From Streptomyces sp. APSN-46.1 (lineage in GTDB: Bacteria > Actinomycetota > Actinomycetes > Streptomycetales > Streptomycetaceae), in contig NZ_JALGRF010000013.1 in assembly GCF_022815725.1 (NCBI RefSeq), positions 62,001 to 126,000 of the forward strand: a stretch of DNA of 64,000 nucleotides, read 5' to 3'. The notes under the pieces are model-generated. The model was not told the origin of the DNA, made no database searches, and was given only the letters and a program-made list of their open reading frames with translations. Position numbers and translations under genes: made by a program. Positions 45,757-51,866 of this stretch are shown one piece after another. Every line of letters starts with the position of its first letter. Within the stretch, counting starts at the first letter, position 1.

Positions 45757-47028
45757 ATGGCAACCGTCAACCAGGCCCCGCCCGGCGCACCCGCCGGAGG
45801 CTACCGCTCCGTCTTCCGCGTCCGGGAGTTCCGGGCCGTCTTCGCCGCGCACCTGATGTCCGTCCTCGGTGTCGTCATCGCCGAGATCGCCCTCACCGTC
45901 CTCGTCTACCGGCTCACCGGCTCGCCCCTGATGAGCGCGCTCACCTTCGCCCTCGGCTTCCTCCCGTACGCCCTCGGCGGCACCCTGCTCGCCGGGGTCG
46001 CCGACCGGTACCCCGCCCGGCGGGTGCTCGTCGCCTGCGACCTGCTCTGCGCCGCCTGCGCCGCCGCCATGGTCCTGCCGGGCACGCCGGTCGCGGTGAT
46101 CCTCGTACTCCGCTGCGCCATGGCCTTCGTCGCGCCGCTGTTCCAGGGCACCCGCAGCGCCTCCCTCGCCGACATCCTCGGCTCCGGCGCCGCCTTCGTG
46201 CTTGGTCGCTCGCTGCTGCGCATGGTGGCCCAGAGTGCCCAGCTCATCGGCTTCGGGCTCGGCGGGCTGCTGCTCACCGTCCTCGCCCCGCGCGGGGCGC
46301 TCGCGCTGACCGCCGCAGGATTCCTCGGCTCGGCGCTGCTGCTGCGCCTCGGCACCCGGGCCCGGCCCGCCCGGGCGGGCGCGGCGGCCGCCCGTACGTC
46401 CGCGCTCGCGGGTCTGCGGGCCGTGCTCGGGGACCGCCGGGTGCGGGCGCTGACCCTGCTGTTCTGGCTGCCGCCCTGCTTCGTCGTCGTACCGGAGGCG
46501 TTGCTCGCCCCGTACGCCGACGGCATCGGCGCCGGCACCGCCGCGCTCGGGCTGCTGATATGCGCGCAGCCCGTCGGCGCCGTCGCGGGGGAACTCTGGG
46601 CGGGCGCGGGACTCACCGCCCGAACGCGTTCCCGGGTCGTGGTGCCGCTCGCCGTCGCCGGGCCGCTGCCGCTGCTCGTCTACGCCGTCCGGCCGGGGGT
46701 GCCGGTCCTCCTCGGCGCGCTGCTGCTGGCGGGGCTGGCCCACGCGTACACCCTCGGGCTCGATCAGATGTGGGTGGACGCCGTCCCCGAGGAGCTGCGC
46801 GGCCGGGCGATGACCCTGCTCAGTACCGGTCTGATGACCTTCCAGGGCGTCGGCATGGCCCTGGCGGGCCTCGCCGCCGAGTTCGTCCCCGTCCACGTGG
46901 TCGTCACGGCGGCCGCGCTGCTCGGCGCGGCGGTCACCGCGCTGCTGTTCGCCGAACTGCGGCTGGCGGACCGCGCGGCCCCGCGGCCGCGCGGGCCGAG
47001 GAGTGAGACAGGGGTGTCCACCAAATGA
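45757..47028 (+). CDS. MFS transporter
   Basis: A 423-residue major facilitator of the drug-efflux-like type with 11-12 membrane segments (FRAVFAAHLMSVLGVVIAEIALTVLVY; SALTFALGFLPYALGGTLLAGVADRYPARRVLV contains the A-motif variant G-x-x-ADR-x-x-x-RR between helices 2 and 3). The ATG at 45757 is chosen; GTG 45748 is an alternative three codons upstream. It is divergent from the ArsR-type gene, and the MarR gene follows 21 bp after its stop. Substrate unknown. Confidence 0.9.
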   Translation: MATVNQAPPGAPAGGYRSVFRVREFRAVFAAHLMSVLGVVIAEIALTVLVYRLTGSPLMSALTFALGFLPYALGGTLLAGVADRYPARRVLVACDLLCAACAAAMVLPGTPVAVILVLRCAMAFVAPLFQGTRSASLADILGSGAAFVLGRSLLRMVAQSAQLIGFGLGGLLLTVLAPRGALALTAAGFLGSALLLRLGTRARPARAGAAAARTSALAGLRAVLGDRRVRALTLLFWLPPCFVVVPEALLAPYADGIGAGTAALGLLICAQPVGAVAGELWAGAGLTARTRSRVVVPLAVAGPLPLLVYAVRPGVPVLLGALLLAGLAHAYTLGLDQMWVDAVPEELRGRAMTLLSTGLMTFQGVGMALAGLAAEFVPVHVVVTAAALLGAAVTALLFAELRLADRAAPRPRGPRSETGVSTK

Positions 47029-47049: not shown

Positions 47050-47559
47050 GTGCCCAAGCCGCTCAGCCTCCCCTTCGACCCCATCGCCCGCGCCGACGAA
47101 CTCTGGCGGGAGCGCTGGGGTCCGGTGCCGTCGATGGCCGCCATCACCTCGATCATGCGGGCGCACCAGATCCTGCTCGCCGAGGTCGACGCGGTGGTCA
47201 AGCCGTACGGACTGACCTTCGCGCGGTACGAGGCGCTGGTGCTGCTCACCTTCTCCAAGGCCGGTGAGCTGCCGATGTCGAAGATCGGTGAGCGTCTGAT
47301 GGTGCACCCGACCTCGGTGACGAACACGGTGGACCGGCTGGTGAGGTCCGGCCTGGTCGACAAGCGGCCCAACCCCAACGACGGGCGCGGCACCCTGGCC
47401 TCCATCACGGACAAGGGCCGGGAGGTCGTCGAGGCGGCCACCAAGGACCTGATGGAGATCGACTTCGGCCTCGGCGTGTACGACGACGAGGAGTGCGCCG
47501 AGATCTTCGCCCTCCTGCGGCCCCTGCGGGTGGCCGCCGCCGACTTCGAGGAGAAGTAG
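47050..47559 (+). CDS. MarR family transcriptional regulator
   Basis: A 169-residue winged-helix regulator; long N-terminal extension (LSLPFDPIARADELWRERWG), helix-turn-helix LPMSKIGERLMVHPTSVTNTVDRL, wing NPNDGRGTLASITDKG. The GTG at 47050 follows TAGGGT (47037-47042) by 7 nt without a ribosome binding site, so it is probably leaderless and its promoter lies in the end of the MFS gene. In this gene order it lies just before DUF3817 and icmA and may act on them. Confidence 0.92.
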   Translation: MPKPLSLPFDPIARADELWRERWGPVPSMAAITSIMRAHQILLAEVDAVVKPYGLTFARYEALVLLTFSKAGELPMSKIGERLMVHPTSVTNTVDRLVRSGLVDKRPNPNDGRGTLASITDKGREVVEAATKDLMEIDFGLGVYDDEECAEIFALLRPLRVAAADFEEK

Positions 47560-47657: not shown

Positions 47658-47987
47658 ATGAAACGAAGCGTGCTGACCCGCTACCGCGTCATGGCCTACG
47701 TGACGGCGGTCATGCTCCTGATCCTCTGCGCCTGCATGGTGGCGAAGTACGGCTTCGACATCGGCGCCGACCTGACCTTCGCGGTCTCGCAGGCGCACGG
47801 TGTGCTGTTCATGGTCTACCTGGTGTTCGCCTTCGACCTGGGCTCGAAGGCGAAGTGGCCCTTCGGCAAGCTCCTGTGGGTGCTGGTGTCGGGGACGATC
47901 CCGCTGGCCGCCTTCTTCGTCGAGCGTACGATCCGCGCCGAGGTCGAGCCGCTGGTCGAGGGCGGCCTGGCCACCGCCAAGGCCTGA
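47658..47987 (+). CDS. DUF3817 domain membrane protein (copy 2)
   Basis: A 109-residue protein with three membrane segments, a shorter relative of the protein at 43811 (FAVSQAHGVLFMVYLVFAFDLGSKAKWPFGKLLWVLVSG). The ATG at 47658 follows TAGGCT (47645-47650) by 7 nt, another leaderless start. A terminator hairpin follows, 9 bp after the stop. Function unknown. Confidence 0.9.
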   Translation: MKRSVLTRYRVMAYVTAVMLLILCACMVAKYGFDIGADLTFAVSQAHGVLFMVYLVFAFDLGSKAKWPFGKLLWVLVSGTIPLAAFFVERTIRAEVEPLVEGGLATAKA

Positions 47988-47996
47988 TTGTTACCG

Positions 47997-48022
47997 CCCC
48001 CGGGGTGACTCCCCGGGGGTTT
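47997..48022 (+). terminator. Intrinsic terminator before icmA
   Basis: CCCCCGGGG (47997-48005), 5-nt loop, CCCCGGGGG (48011-48019), then TTT. It isolates the DUF3817 gene from icmA. Confidence 0.8.
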
Positions 48023-48031
48023 GCCATCGAC

Positions 48032-48055
48032 ATTTACTAGGACGTCCTAGTAAAT
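48032..48055. promoter_or_regulatory. Perfect 24-bp palindrome overlapping the icmA promoter
   Basis: ATTTACTAGGAC (48032-48043) and GTCCTAGTAAAT (48044-48055) are exact reverse complements. A TAAATT box (48051-48056) overlaps the right arm and lies 6 nt before the icmA ATG, so a repressor on this palindrome would block a leaderless icmA promoter. The low GC content stands out from the surroundings. Confidence 0.8.
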
Positions 48056-48062
48056 TTGAAGC

Positions 48063-49763
48063 ATGGATGCTGACGCGATCGAGGAGGGCCGCCAGCGCTG
48101 GCAGGCCCGTTACGACAAGGCCCGCAAGCGCGACGCGGATTTCACCACTCTCTCCGGCGATGCCGTCGATCCGGTCTACGGGCCCCGGCCCGGCGACTCG
48201 TACGAGGGCTTCGAGCGCATCGGGTGGCCGGGAGAGTACCCGTACACCCGCGGCCTGCACGCCACCGGCTACCGGGGGCGCACCTGGACCATCCGGCAGT
48301 TCGCCGGGTTCGGGAACGCCGAGCAGACCAACGAGCGCTACAAGATGATCCTCGCGGCCGGCGGCGGCGGGCTCTCCGTCGCCTTCGACATGCCGACCCT
48401 GATGGGCCGCGACTCCGACGACCCGCGCGCGCTCGGCGAGGTCGGGCACTGCGGGGTCGCCATAGACTCCGCCGCCGACATGGAGGTCCTGTTCAAGGAC
48501 ATCCCGCTCGGCGACGTCACCACCTCGATGACGATCTCGGGGCCCGCCGTACCCGCCTTCTGCATGTACCTGGTCGCCGCCGAGCGGCAGGGTGTGGATC
48601 CGGCCGTGCTGAACGGCACGCTCCAGACCGACATCTTCAAGGAGTACATCGCCCAGAAGGAGTGGCTCTTCGAACCCGAGCCGCACCTGCGCCTCATCGG
48701 CGACCTCATGGAGTACTGCGCCACCGGCATCCCGGCGTACAAGCCGCTGTCGGTCTCCGGCTACCACATCCGCGAGGCCGGGGCCACGGCCGCGCAGGAG
48801 CTCGCGTACACGCTGGCGGACGGTTTCGGCTACGTGGAGCTCGGCCTCTCGCGCGGCATGGACGTGGACGTCTTCGCGCCCGGGCTCTCCTTCTTCTTCG
48901 ACGCGCACCTCGACTTCTTCGAGGAGATCGCCAAGTTCCGCGCCGCCCGCCGGATCTGGGCGCGCTGGATGAAGGAGGTGTACGGGGCGAAGAGCGACAA
49001 GTCGATGTGGCTGCGCTTCCACACCCAGACCGCCGGGGTCTCGCTGACCGCGCAGCAGCCGTACAACAACGTCGTCCGCACCGCCGTGGAGGCCCTCGCG
49101 GCCGTCCTCGGCGGGACCAACTCCCTGCACACCAACGCCCTCGACGAGACCCTCGCGCTGCCGAGCGAGCAGGCGGCCGAGATCGCCCTGCGCACCCAGC
49201 AGGTGCTGATGGAGGAGACCGGGGTGGCCAACGTGGCCGACCCGCTGGGCGGCGCCTGGTACGTCGAGCAGCTCACCGACCGCATCGAGGCGGACGCCGA
49301 GAAGATCTTCGACCAGATCAAGGAGCGCGGGCTGCGCGCCCACCCGGACGGGCAGCACCCGATCGGGCCGATCACCTCCGGCATCCTGCGCGGCATCGAG
49401 GACGGCTGGTTCACCGGGGAGATCGCCGAGTCGGCCTTCCAGTACCAGCGCTCGCTGGAGAAGGGCGACAAGCGGGTCGTCGGCGTCAACGTCCACCATG
49501 GGTCGGTCACCGGGGACCTGGAGATCCTCCGGGTCAGCCACGAGGTGGAGACCGTCCAGGTGCGGGAGTTGGCCGCGCGCAAGGGCCGTCGCGACGACGC
49601 CAAGGTCACCGCCTCGCTGAAGGCCATGCTGGACGCCGCGCGGGACGGGTCGAACATGATCCCGGCCATGCTGGACGCGGTACGGGCCGAGGCCACGCTC
49701 GGCGAGATCTGCAACGTGCTGCGGGACGAGTGGGGCACCTACACGGAGCCGCCGGGCTTCTAG
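48063..49763 (+). CDS. icmA: Isobutyryl-CoA mutase large subunit IcmA
   Basis: A 566-residue adenosylcobalamin-dependent mutase large subunit with the substrate-binding TIM barrel only; the B12-binding domain is in a separate small subunit (IcmB), not in this window. Two residues that distinguish isobutyryl-CoA from methylmalonyl-CoA mutase are visible: Phe80 ([13 protein letters not shown]; Tyr89 in MCM) and Gln198 (EYIAQKE; Arg207 in MCM). Length equals that of Streptomyces IcmA. It interconverts isobutyryl-CoA and n-butyryl-CoA, linking valine breakdown to polyketide precursors. ATG 48063 with TAAATT 6 nt upstream (leaderless), under the 48032-48055 palindrome. Confidence 0.95.
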
Positions 49764-49919: not shown

Positions 49920-50573
49920 TCAGGGCTGGGCGGCCGGGCCCCGGAGACCGTGCATCAGGAGCGCGGTGAACGTGGCCACCCACAGCTCGTCCACCGGCTC
50001 GGAGCTCACCAGCGCCCGGTGGACCACGGTCCCGGCGATCACGTCGAATATCAGGTCCGTGGTGTGGCCCGCGACGGACTCGTCCTCCTCGTAGGGGAGT
50101 TCACCGCGCGCCTGCGCCCGTTCGCGACCCAGTACGACGAGACGTTTCTGCCGGTCCACGATCGCCGACCGGATCCGGTCCCGCAGCGCCTCGTCCCGGG
50201 TGGACTCGGCGACCACCGCCATCAGGGCCGTACGGGCCTCCGGGCGCCGGAGCAGCTCCGCGAACTGCAGCACCACGTACTCGATGTCGGCTTCGAGGGA
50301 GCCCCGGTCGGGTAGTTCGAGGGAGTCGAAGAGCTCCGCGACCGCGTCCACGACCAGTTCGTTCTTGCCGGCCCAGCGCCGGTACAGGGTGGTCTTCGCG
50401 ACGCCCGCCCGGGCCGAGACGTCACCCATCGTCAGCTTCGACCAGCCGAGCTCGACCAGCGCGTCCCGGGTGGCGGCGAGGATCGCCGCGTCCGCAGCGG
50501 CGCTGCGGGGGCGGCCGGTGCGGCCGGGTGGGGGGGCGGTGCCGGGGCTGGGGTTGCGCATGGCGGTGACCAT
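49920..50573 (-). CDS. TetR family transcriptional regulator
   Basis: A 217-residue regulator with a Pro-rich N-terminal arm (SPGTAPPPGRTGRPRS), TetR helix-turn-helix (LTMGDVSARAGVAKTTLYRRWAGKNEL) and a C-terminal ligand domain of the AcrR/TetR_C type. ATG 50573 is the longest start; ATG 50561 is an alternative four codons in. A perfect 23-nt palindrome lies 75 bp upstream (50648-50670), a likely operator for itself and perhaps for the divergent thioredoxin-TPR gene. Confidence 0.9.
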   Translation of the reverse strand: MVTAMRNPSPGTAPPPGRTGRPRSAAADAAILAATRDALVELGWSKLTMGDVSARAGVAKTTLYRRWAGKNELVVDAVAELFDSLELPDRGSLEADIEYVVLQFAELLRRPEARTALMAVVAESTRDEALRDRIRSAIVDRQKRLVVLGRERAQARGELPYEEDESVAGHTTDLIFDVIAGTVVHRALVSSEPVDELWVATFTALLMHGLRGPAAQP

Positions 50574-50647: not shown

Positions 50648-50670
50648 TTACGCTACGACTCGTAGCGTAA
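50648..50670. promoter_or_regulatory. Perfect 23-nt palindrome, probable TetR operator
   Basis: TTACGCTACGA-C-TCGTAGCGTAA in the 294-bp gap between the TetR gene and the divergent thioredoxin-TPR gene. TACGCT on the plus strand (50649-50654) and TACGCT-like boxes on the minus strand are possible -10 sequences inside the palindrome, which would make it a direct repressor site. Confidence 0.75.
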
Positions 50671-50723
50671 GAGCGACAACCACGCGAAGCTACTGGCGCC
50701 AGGTGGGGACCCGGCGCCGACCG

Positions 50724-50805
50724 CATCACCAGCACGACCAGCGTGACCGGCACGACCAGTATGACCAGCACGACACGACCAGCACGACACAACCGGTACG
50801 ACCGG
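50724..50805 (+). repeat. Degenerate tandem array of a 9-10 bp CACGACCAG unit
   Basis: About eight copies of ACCAGCACG/CACGACCAG-like units between the palindrome and the thioredoxin-TPR gene. One strand is free of stops but the translation is low-complexity His/Asp/Gln, and the real gene starts at 50868, so I consider it non-coding. Confidence 0.7.
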
Positions 50806-50867
50806 ATCGCCGCGGCAATTCGCGCGATCCTTTTCGTCGGCGCGCGCAAACGGGGGAGGATGTACGC

Positions 50868-51866
50868 ATGCAGCCCAGAAACATGTCCATGAGCGGCGTC
50901 GTCGACCTCGCCGCGGTGAAGGCGGCCGGCGAAGCCAAGGCGAAGGCCGAGCAGGCGCGGGCCGAGTCGGCCCGGCAGGGCGGCGGCGGTGCGGGTTCCG
51001 CGGCCGCCGGCGCCGTGCCGCCGTCCGCGCTCGTCATCGACGTAGACGAGGCCGGTTTTGAACGCGACGTACTCCAGCTCTCCAACGAGGTTCCGGTCGT
51101 CCTCGACTTCTGGGCCGAGTGGTGCGAGCCCTGCAAGCAGCTCAGCCCGCTCCTGGAGCGGCTGACCGTAGAGGCCAACGGCCGAGTCGTCCTGGCGAAG
51201 ATCGACGTGGACGCCAACCAGTTGCTGATGCAGCAGTTCGGCATCCAGGGCATCCCGGCCGTCTTCGCCGTGGTCGCGGGCCAGGTGCTGCCGCTGTTCC
51301 AGGGCGTCGTGCCCGAGCAGCAGATCCGCGAGACCCTCGCCCAGCTGGTCCAGGTCGGCGAGGAGCGCTTCGGCCTCATCGGCCTCCAGGTGGACCCGGG
51401 CGCCGAGGGCCCCGCCGCCCCGGCGGGCGAGACCGAGGCTCCGGCCGGCCCGTACGACGCGCTGCTGGAGGCGGCCGTCGCCGCGCTGGACGCCGGCGAC
51501 TTCGGCGGCGCGGTCCAGGCGTACAAGAACGTACTGGCGGACGACCCGGCGAACATCGAAGCGAAGCTGGGCCTGGCCCAGGCCGAGCTGCTCGGCCGCG
51601 TACAGCACATGAACCCGCAGGCGGTGCGCGAGGCGGCCGCGGCCAACCCCAGCGACCCGCAGGCGCAGATCGCCGCCGCAGACCTGGACCTGGTCGGCGG
51701 TCACGTGGAGGACGCCTTCGGGCGCCTGGTGGACACCGTACGGGTGACGTCGGGCGAGGAGCGGGACGCCGTACGGATGCGCCTGCTGGAGCTGTTCGAG
51801 GTCATCGGGGCGGACGATCCGCGGGTCAGCGCCGCGCGTACGGCACTCGCGCGAGTCCTCTTCTAG
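50868..51866 (+). CDS. Thioredoxin-TPR fusion protein (CnoX/YbbN-like co-chaperone)
   Basis: A 332-residue cytoplasmic protein: a charged Ala-rich N-terminal region (about 1-50), a thioredoxin domain with WCEPC (Cys86, Cys89) and the cis-Pro loop GIQGIPAVF, then TPR-like helices (about 200-330: YDALLEAAVAALDAGDFGGAVQAYKNVLADDP...). Family members act as redox-linked holdases or chaperone partners. ATG 50868 with GGGGGAGGA 9-13 nt upstream; the frame is open upstream through the tandem array, which is excluded. Both cysteines are kept, unlike E. coli CnoX (SxxC). Confidence 0.92.
   Translation: MQPRNMSMSGVVDLAAVKAAGEAKAKAEQARAESARQGGGGAGSAAAGAVPPSALVIDVDEAGFERDVLQLSNEVPVVLDFWAEWCEPCKQLSPLLERLTVEANGRVVLAKIDVDANQLLMQQFGIQGIPAVFAVVAGQVLPLFQGVVPEQQIRETLAQLVQVGEERFGLIGLQVDPGAEGPAAPAGETEAPAGPYDALLEAAVAALDAGDFGGAVQAYKNVLADDPANIEAKLGLAQAELLGRVQHMNPQAVREAAAANPSDPQAQIAAADLDLVGGHVEDAFGRLVDTVRVTSGEERDAVRMRLLELFEVIGADDPRVSAARTALARVLF

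Follow-up and report, generated by a model that had tools for sequence, protein, structure and literature searches.

A palindrome on the icmA promoter of Streptomyces as the putative operator of a Sco5413-type MarR regulator, with counterparts before icmF and mmsA

What protein, if any, acts on the palindrome that overlies the promoter of the isobutyryl-CoA mutase gene icmA in Streptomyces sp. APSN-46.1, and what would make it let go? The window, that is, the whole stretch of DNA that we analysed, comprises 64,000 nucleotides of contig NZ_JALGRF010000013.1. The first-pass annotation of this window had placed a perfect 24-bp palindrome on the -10 box of icmA, had named the products of two nearby genes, a MarR protein and a TetR protein, as candidate binders, and had suggested tight ligand-responsive repression of the mutase.

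The palindrome and the predicted promoter of icmA

The features on which the argument depends are the following.

47050-47559, + strand: MarR-family regulator, the proposed binder (Pfam MarR 2e-12, MarR_2 4.9e-12; ortholog of PDB 4b8x)
47658-47987, + strand: DUF3817 protein, its gene flanked by marR and icmA; we assign it no role
47997-48019, + strand: GC-rich hairpin CCCCCGGGG-TGACT-CCCCGGGGG, then TTT, read by eye; between the DUF3817 gene and icmA
48027-48032, + strand: predicted -35 hexamer TCGACA, inside the conserved footprint
48036-48051: 16-bp conserved core ACTAGGACGTCCTAGT, within the 24-bp palindrome ATTTACTAGGACGTCCTAGTAAAT
48051-48056, + strand: predicted -10 hexamer TAAATT; all but one of its six bases belong to the palindrome
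48063-49763, + strand: icmA, isobutyryl-CoA mutase large subunit (PF01642, TIGR00641)
49920-50573, - strand: TetR-family regulator, convergent with icmA; judged not to be the binder

The palindrome is indeed perfect and gapless, occupies positions 48032-48055 and contains 16 A/T. It is followed as described by the end of TAAATT (48051-48056), six further nucleotides (48057-48062) and the ATG at 48063. No other gapless palindrome in the window has arms of at least 12 bp. One hundred first-order Markov resamples of the window yielded on average 0.03 such palindromes (largest number, 2), and none with at least 14 A/T. Allowing up to three mismatches, the core has two matches in the window, namely the icmA site and one at 1194 with three mismatches (shuffles, mean 0.13), and a scan with the site matrix described below exceeded 5 bits at icmA only. 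To call it the clearest operator in the window, as the annotation did, is fair; it is not unique, given that TTACGCTACGACTCGTAGCGTAA is a palindrome with arms of 11 bp. The latter, at 50648-50670, precedes both the TetR gene and a thioredoxin/TPR gene (50703-51866), and many of the TetR orthologs in the family, though not all, have it or a near form of it upstream.

The sole promoter match found by the promoter scan between 47850 and 48150 consisted of TCGACA, a spacer of 18 nt and TAAATT (shuffles, mean 0.1). With the promoter so placed, the palindrome spans the last base of the -35 hexamer, the whole spacer and five of the six bases of the -10 hexamer, so that a two-fold symmetric site overlaps the predicted promoter of its presumed target. 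Since the ATG lies only 6 nt past the predicted -10, the icmA mRNA is probably leaderless. The hairpin at 47997-48019, which parts icmA from the upstream DUF3817 gene and marR, resembles a terminator, yet its T-run falls short of what the terminator scan demands, and that scan lists none. The name icmA was taken over from the annotation. By domain search, the product carries the mutase domain only, and a B12-binding domain was not found in it; IcmA is a protein without the B12 domain.

Distribution of the site before icmA, icmF and mmsA

We collected 80 loci of named Streptomyces by a protein search with the MarR alignment, disregarding the motif, and dropped one (L223), which was without icmA. 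The core was exact in 57 of the remaining 79, had one mismatch in 20 and two mismatches in 2, as against a best value of 6-7 mismatches in all 79 for a coding control of the same length from the same genes. The distance from the core end to the ATG was 11-13 nt in 78 loci and 44 nt in one. Over these loci the conserved block, or footprint, reads CATCGACATTTACTAGGACGTCCTAGTAAATTCGA, the flanking bases being less conserved. The annotation had made its proposal hinge on conservation upstream of icmA in other Streptomyces. Because such conservation is present in 79/79 named loci, with 0-2 mismatches, the role of the palindrome as the putative operator of icmA is strongly supported by comparative sequence evidence.

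In a separate draw of 200 genomes across the family, the exact core occurred in 50 (reversed control, 0). Among the 30 loci taken from these genomes, it preceded icmA in 26 and icmF in 4, and the MarR gene was within the fetched stretch in 25 of the 26 icmA loci. Loci of this kind, like those from the 393-genome class search below, were picked by the motif; they show what the motif precedes, and consequently do not give the frequency of the motif at icmA. We also examined 20 family MarR loci picked because their genomes were without the exact core. All had icmA near the MarR gene, with 1-2 mismatches in 19 cases and 4 in one; some of them had two copies of the site 20-21 bp apart.

When the search was extended to the class, ACTNGGACGTCCNAGT was found in 58 of 393 genomes, 20 of these 58 lying outside the family. 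A relative of the MarR protein (E 1e-25 or better) was encoded in 20/20 motif-bearing genomes outside the family, against 230/349 genomes there overall (Fisher p 1.8e-4, kinship not corrected for). We inspected loci from 18 of these 20 genomes (leaving out G287 and G455), together with 2 Streptomyces loci. The site stood before icmA, with MarR in the same locus, in 13 of these 20 loci, and before mmsA, a 3-hydroxybutyryl-CoA dehydrogenase gene, an E1 dehydrogenase component gene (two genomes), sdhC and ilvE (the 2 Streptomyces) in the other 7.

A complementary set consisted of 40 loci of other families chosen by the position of the MarR gene, 39 of them from genomes without a match to ACTNGGACGTCCNAGT; of the second 20 of these loci, 18 came from a single family (f22), picked after one locus (L150) had shown icmF beside MarR. 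There was an icmA gene within 5 kb in 17 of the 40, and in 17/17 it was preceded by a site with 1-3 mismatches. Another 10 had icmF in the locus, with a site of 21-34 bits in 10/10; nine of these icmF genes were divergent from MarR, and one was on the same strand 1.3 kb away. Where marR and icmF are divergent, a common site could serve both genes. The 13 loci with neither icmA nor icmF had no site of at least 15 bits. In two of the motif-picked loci (L118 and L119, of one family), some 2 kb with other genes separates marR from icmA; both genes are kept, and the site still stands before icmA.

IcmF, the fused isobutyryl-CoA mutase, is built differently from IcmA and catalyses the same reaction. 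In the four motif-bearing family loci lacking icmA behind the site, the product of the downstream gene is about 1076 aa long and matches IcmF (NF045497) over its N-terminal half; this fragment match is below the whole-protein cut-off, and a full-length relative scored 1921 bits versus a cut-off of 1500. No Sco5413-type MarR gene adjoined the family icmF genes examined. Such a gene was present elsewhere in the genomes of the four loci, and near the icmF of one genome (G046) there was another MarR gene, whose product is 34% identical. For the 13 MarR loci of other families that had no mutase neighbour, icmF was sought in 12 of the genomes; all 12 have it elsewhere, preceded by a site scoring 25-46 bits. 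The best score among 2000 random stretches of 300 bp at 71% G+C was 0.3. The site before a distant icmF in every one of these genomes, and none at the lone MarR genes, means that the site follows the mutase, not the MarR gene. The site before icmF was weak or doubtful in five genomes (G279, 20.1; G246, 16.2; G410, 13.7; G531, 7.7; G232, 6.4 bits). In one further case (G211, locus L266), icmF has a MarR relative as its neighbour, but no site can be recognised between the two genes; this regulator may be a different paralog, or the site that it uses may have changed.

A third setting was encountered in a genus that we take to be Mycobacterium. Here the site precedes mmsA, the gene of a CoA-acylating methylmalonate-semialdehyde dehydrogenase (TIGR01722), which in one locus (L120) is followed by an acyl-CoA dehydrogenase gene. 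MmsA is part of a mutase-free route for isobutyryl-CoA. The gene was found in 40 of the 41 genomes of the genus searched, and no icmF was detected at E 1e-100 in four of its genomes. All 30 mmsA loci fetched had the site, at 19-44 bits, in forms such as TTACTAGGATATCCAAGTA and TTACTAGGATGTCCTAGTA. The MarR relative was 2-9 kb from mmsA in 14/14, these being 14 of the 40 mmsA genomes, mostly those with long contigs, and the next best site match per 20-kb stretch was below 0. Both these mmsA loci and the icmF loci of the 12 genomes above were chosen without asking for the motif.

For scoring, we used a matrix trained on 52 icmA sites, and the score counts for icmA are therefore partly circular, whereas those for icmF and mmsA are not. 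A score of at least 15 bits was reached in 177/177 distinct upstream regions of icmA, 30/34 of icmF and 33/33 of mmsA. Distinct regions were counted because the 110-row table of sites repeats some genome places; they include motif-picked regions and near kin, so that the counts are not independent events. Throughout the 3.1 Mb of fetched sequence, 14 of 322 matches of at least 15 bits fell outside the five named gene classes, overlapping loci being counted more than once.

Strong sites stand before the 3-hydroxybutyryl-CoA dehydrogenase gene (L121:8012-8056, two copies 21 bp apart) and before the E1 dehydrogenase component gene in other families (L122:7967-7990 and L123:5781-5804), and these genes are possible further targets, judging from the sites. 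The site at sdhC (L130) and other single sites were taken as possible chance matches.

The protein that may bind the site

The gene context across several families supports the MarR protein encoded at 47050 as the candidate binder. Its gene, or that of a relative, was near the target in 13/13 motif-picked icmA loci, in 17 icmA and 10 icmF loci among the 40 chosen by MarR position, and in 14/14 mmsA loci. Three targets thus have one site, and one MarR family where a regulator of this kind is near. The protein has a winged-helix MarR domain and matches 4b8x at E 3.7e-81 over residues 26-168. We take PDB 4b8x to be the entry for Sco5413, which the title of its structure paper calls 'of unknown function'; the family of this ortholog here gains a candidate operator and candidate targets. 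We put at about 0.82 the probability that the palindrome is the operator of a Sco5413-type MarR repressor which isobutyryl-CoA would release, turning icmA on, and that icmF and mmsA would be controlled likewise, with binding, repression and ligand all inferred.

The TetR protein (49920-50573), the other binder proposed by the annotation, fares much worse. TetR proteins do use palindromes of such size, and within the family the gene is a regular neighbour: it is beside icmA in 62 of the 79 named loci (of the 17 without it, at least 8 are stretches that end at a contig end) and in 20/20 of the family loci picked for being without the exact core. Proximity is indirect evidence for the MarR protein too: in Streptomyces this TetR gene and the DUF3817 gene, the latter in 79/79 of the same named loci, are conserved neighbours as well. 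Outside the family, however, TetR is rare, with 2 of 13 motif-picked icmA loci (43% identity), 0 of 40 MarR loci (icmA and the site being present in 17 of these), 0 of 24 icmF loci and 1 of 14 mmsA loci (a 31% match). Moreover, many, not all, of the family TetR orthologs have a different palindrome upstream, TTACGCTACGAnTCGTAGCGTAA or a near form. Binding by TetR is accordingly very improbable.

A regulator acting in trans, such as the IclR-type NdgR or the TetR regulators AccR and PccD, needs no neighbouring gene, and the NdgR ChIP-seq targets reported for S. coelicolor in the available portion of PMC4340878 include SCO5413 and leuB-ilvE. This listing ties the Sco5413-type MarR to branched-chain amino acid control, which NdgR likewise exerts. 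The published motifs, however, are unlike the palindrome. NdgR has its own motif, [GT]T[CT]CAC..GGAC (in its 15-bp form GTCC-N7-GGAC), with no match to the palindrome. The exact form occurs at six places in the window, of which one (48486) is within icmA and none is at the palindrome; at 47016, ahead of marR, there is a loose match, GTCCACCAAATGACC. AccR of S. avermitilis and PccD of Saccharopolyspora also regulate short-chain acyl-CoA genes in actinomycetes, but belong to the TetR family and have other operators: the GTTAA-N6-TTAAC of AccR and the PccD site listed in the available part of PMC10933834 both differ from the palindrome, the former as compared by eye. A trans factor of this sort, which would also leave unexplained why one MarR family lies near icmA, icmF and mmsA in turn, seems to us unlikely.

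We considered, finally, that no protein might be involved, the palindrome being either a hairpin in the transcript or a part of the promoter retained for some other reason. Perfect palindromes are able to fold, and this one overlaps the promoter. Given the predicted promoter, though, it lies upstream of the mRNA start. The site is also kept at varied distances from the start codon, the end of the 24-mer being 7-67 nt from that of icmA (5th to 95th percentile). A second site occurs in 10/177 icmA and 7/34 icmF upstream regions, at a distance of 20-22 bp in 7 of the former and 6 of the latter; this spacing suggests that in some species two dimers may sit on the same face of the helix. Furthermore, changes at the two central bases are mirrored, with matching letters in 19/19 sites changed in both halves (Fisher p 1.4e-5; the sequences are related), while the other two positions tested for mirrored change showed no such effect (p 0.22 and 0.30). 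An explanation without a binding protein is, on balance, exceedingly improbable.

Proposed control by isobutyryl-CoA and targets in the host genome

According to the mechanism that we propose for the Sco5413-type MarR, the regulator encoded about 0.5 kb upstream of the palindrome would recognize it as its operator, a dimer binding both mirrored half-sites, of the form TA[C/G]TwGGAC, over the spacer and the -10 of the icmA promoter. This placement points to repression, and bound MarR would block RNA polymerase. When isobutyryl-CoA from valine (or another source) accumulates, MarR would be released and icmA made. The same regulator and site would control the isobutyryl-CoA enzyme of each actinobacterium, be it IcmA, IcmF or the products of the mmsA/acyl-CoA dehydrogenase genes. 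Isobutyryl-CoA is proposed as the ligand because IcmA, IcmF and the mmsA route have this metabolite in common, and it is probably what releases the operator. The tight ligand-responsive repression of icmA envisaged by the annotation is plausible.

Systems made up of a MarR repressor and a palindromic operator are already known. A close parallel is CouR of Rhodococcus jostii, which represses catabolic genes and binds p-coumaroyl-CoA; this MarR protein loses its hold on DNA in the presence of an acyl-CoA, a CoA thioester of the pathway, as described in the available part of PMC4737184. CouR serves a hydroxycinnamate pathway, whereas the ligand would here be isobutyryl-CoA. In Streptomyces albus, L-valine raises the mRNA of isobutyryl-CoA mutase, presumably the icmA ortholog, by log2 5.1-5.2 (excerpt of PMC8176718). 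The mycobacterial MarR protein Rv0737/Ms_1492 is possibly the relative found near mmsA; the title of its paper gives sigL-rslA as the target, and the available excerpt leaves the exact binding site to future work and makes no mention of mmsA (PMC13002591). Within the open-licence PMC literature, the matches listed held no report of this operator or regulon; the 14-mer CTAGGACGTCCTAG was in no paper, and TAGGACGTCCTA was in none among the matches listed.

We think it likely that the Sco5413-type MarR is an old isobutyryl-CoA sensor common to much of the Actinomycetes, and that its operator tracks the metabolic step, from icmA to icmF to mmsA (the genus being taken as Mycobacterium), with non-orthologous enzymes under one switch. 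If true, the persistence of a single switch while the enzymes under it changed would show clearly how a regulator can follow a metabolic node, and a widespread regulator with a solved structure would acquire a function, an operator and a testable ligand. IcmA connects valine breakdown to butyryl-CoA and, through it, to precursors of polyketide antibiotics such as ethylmalonyl-CoA; since it feeds polyketide precursors, a switch on icmA would be a handle on precursor supply. The operator together with its MarR might also be made into a biosensor for the ligand.

The annotation had expected further copies of the sequence at acyl-CoA genes elsewhere in the genome. This holds across genomes, where icmF and mmsA are preceded by the site, but not within the host genome. 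Its 6.6 Mb contain the exact 16-bp core once; there is no enrichment of the core at up to three mismatches (27 places versus 36 for the reversed control) or of a degenerate 18-mer at up to two (6 places versus 5). IcmF was not found in the host genome, the best matches being 34-37% identical to parts of it, and there is no site at the gene of the B12-binding small subunit that we take to be icmB. The core being unique, looser matches not being in excess, IcmF not having been found and the presumed icmB having no site, no regulon is visible in this genome beyond icmA. MarR regulators are often autoregulated, a common, not universal, trait. The matrix scan gave no site before marR in the window, so that autoregulation through such a site is not apparent for this MarR.

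Two of the six 18-mer matches in the host genome fall in the leuB-ilvE region (contig C31). The leuB match scores 36.9 bits, and 12 of 25 Streptomyces loci have it no more than 800 bp from leuB. We did not include it among the targets; it sits in a much longer conserved, asymmetric element. This element, of more than 100 nt (CGTCTCAGATAGTAGGAAGTCCGAGTAATTG..GAGACA and more downstream; L016:5398-5534 on contig C31, and in other Streptomyces), lies at a variable distance of about 400-680 nt from leuB and holds an operator-like stretch of up to 37 bits. It had no Rfam match in the 3 loci searched and no clear fold (z -0.2 and -1.4). Before ilvE, 25 of 30 Streptomyces loci have CTCGGACGTCC (L016:7042-7065 in the host genome), and a further locus has it with a single base changed. 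The conserved stretch is one-sided, and this match was likewise not counted as a target; it could represent a leader or a weak second target.
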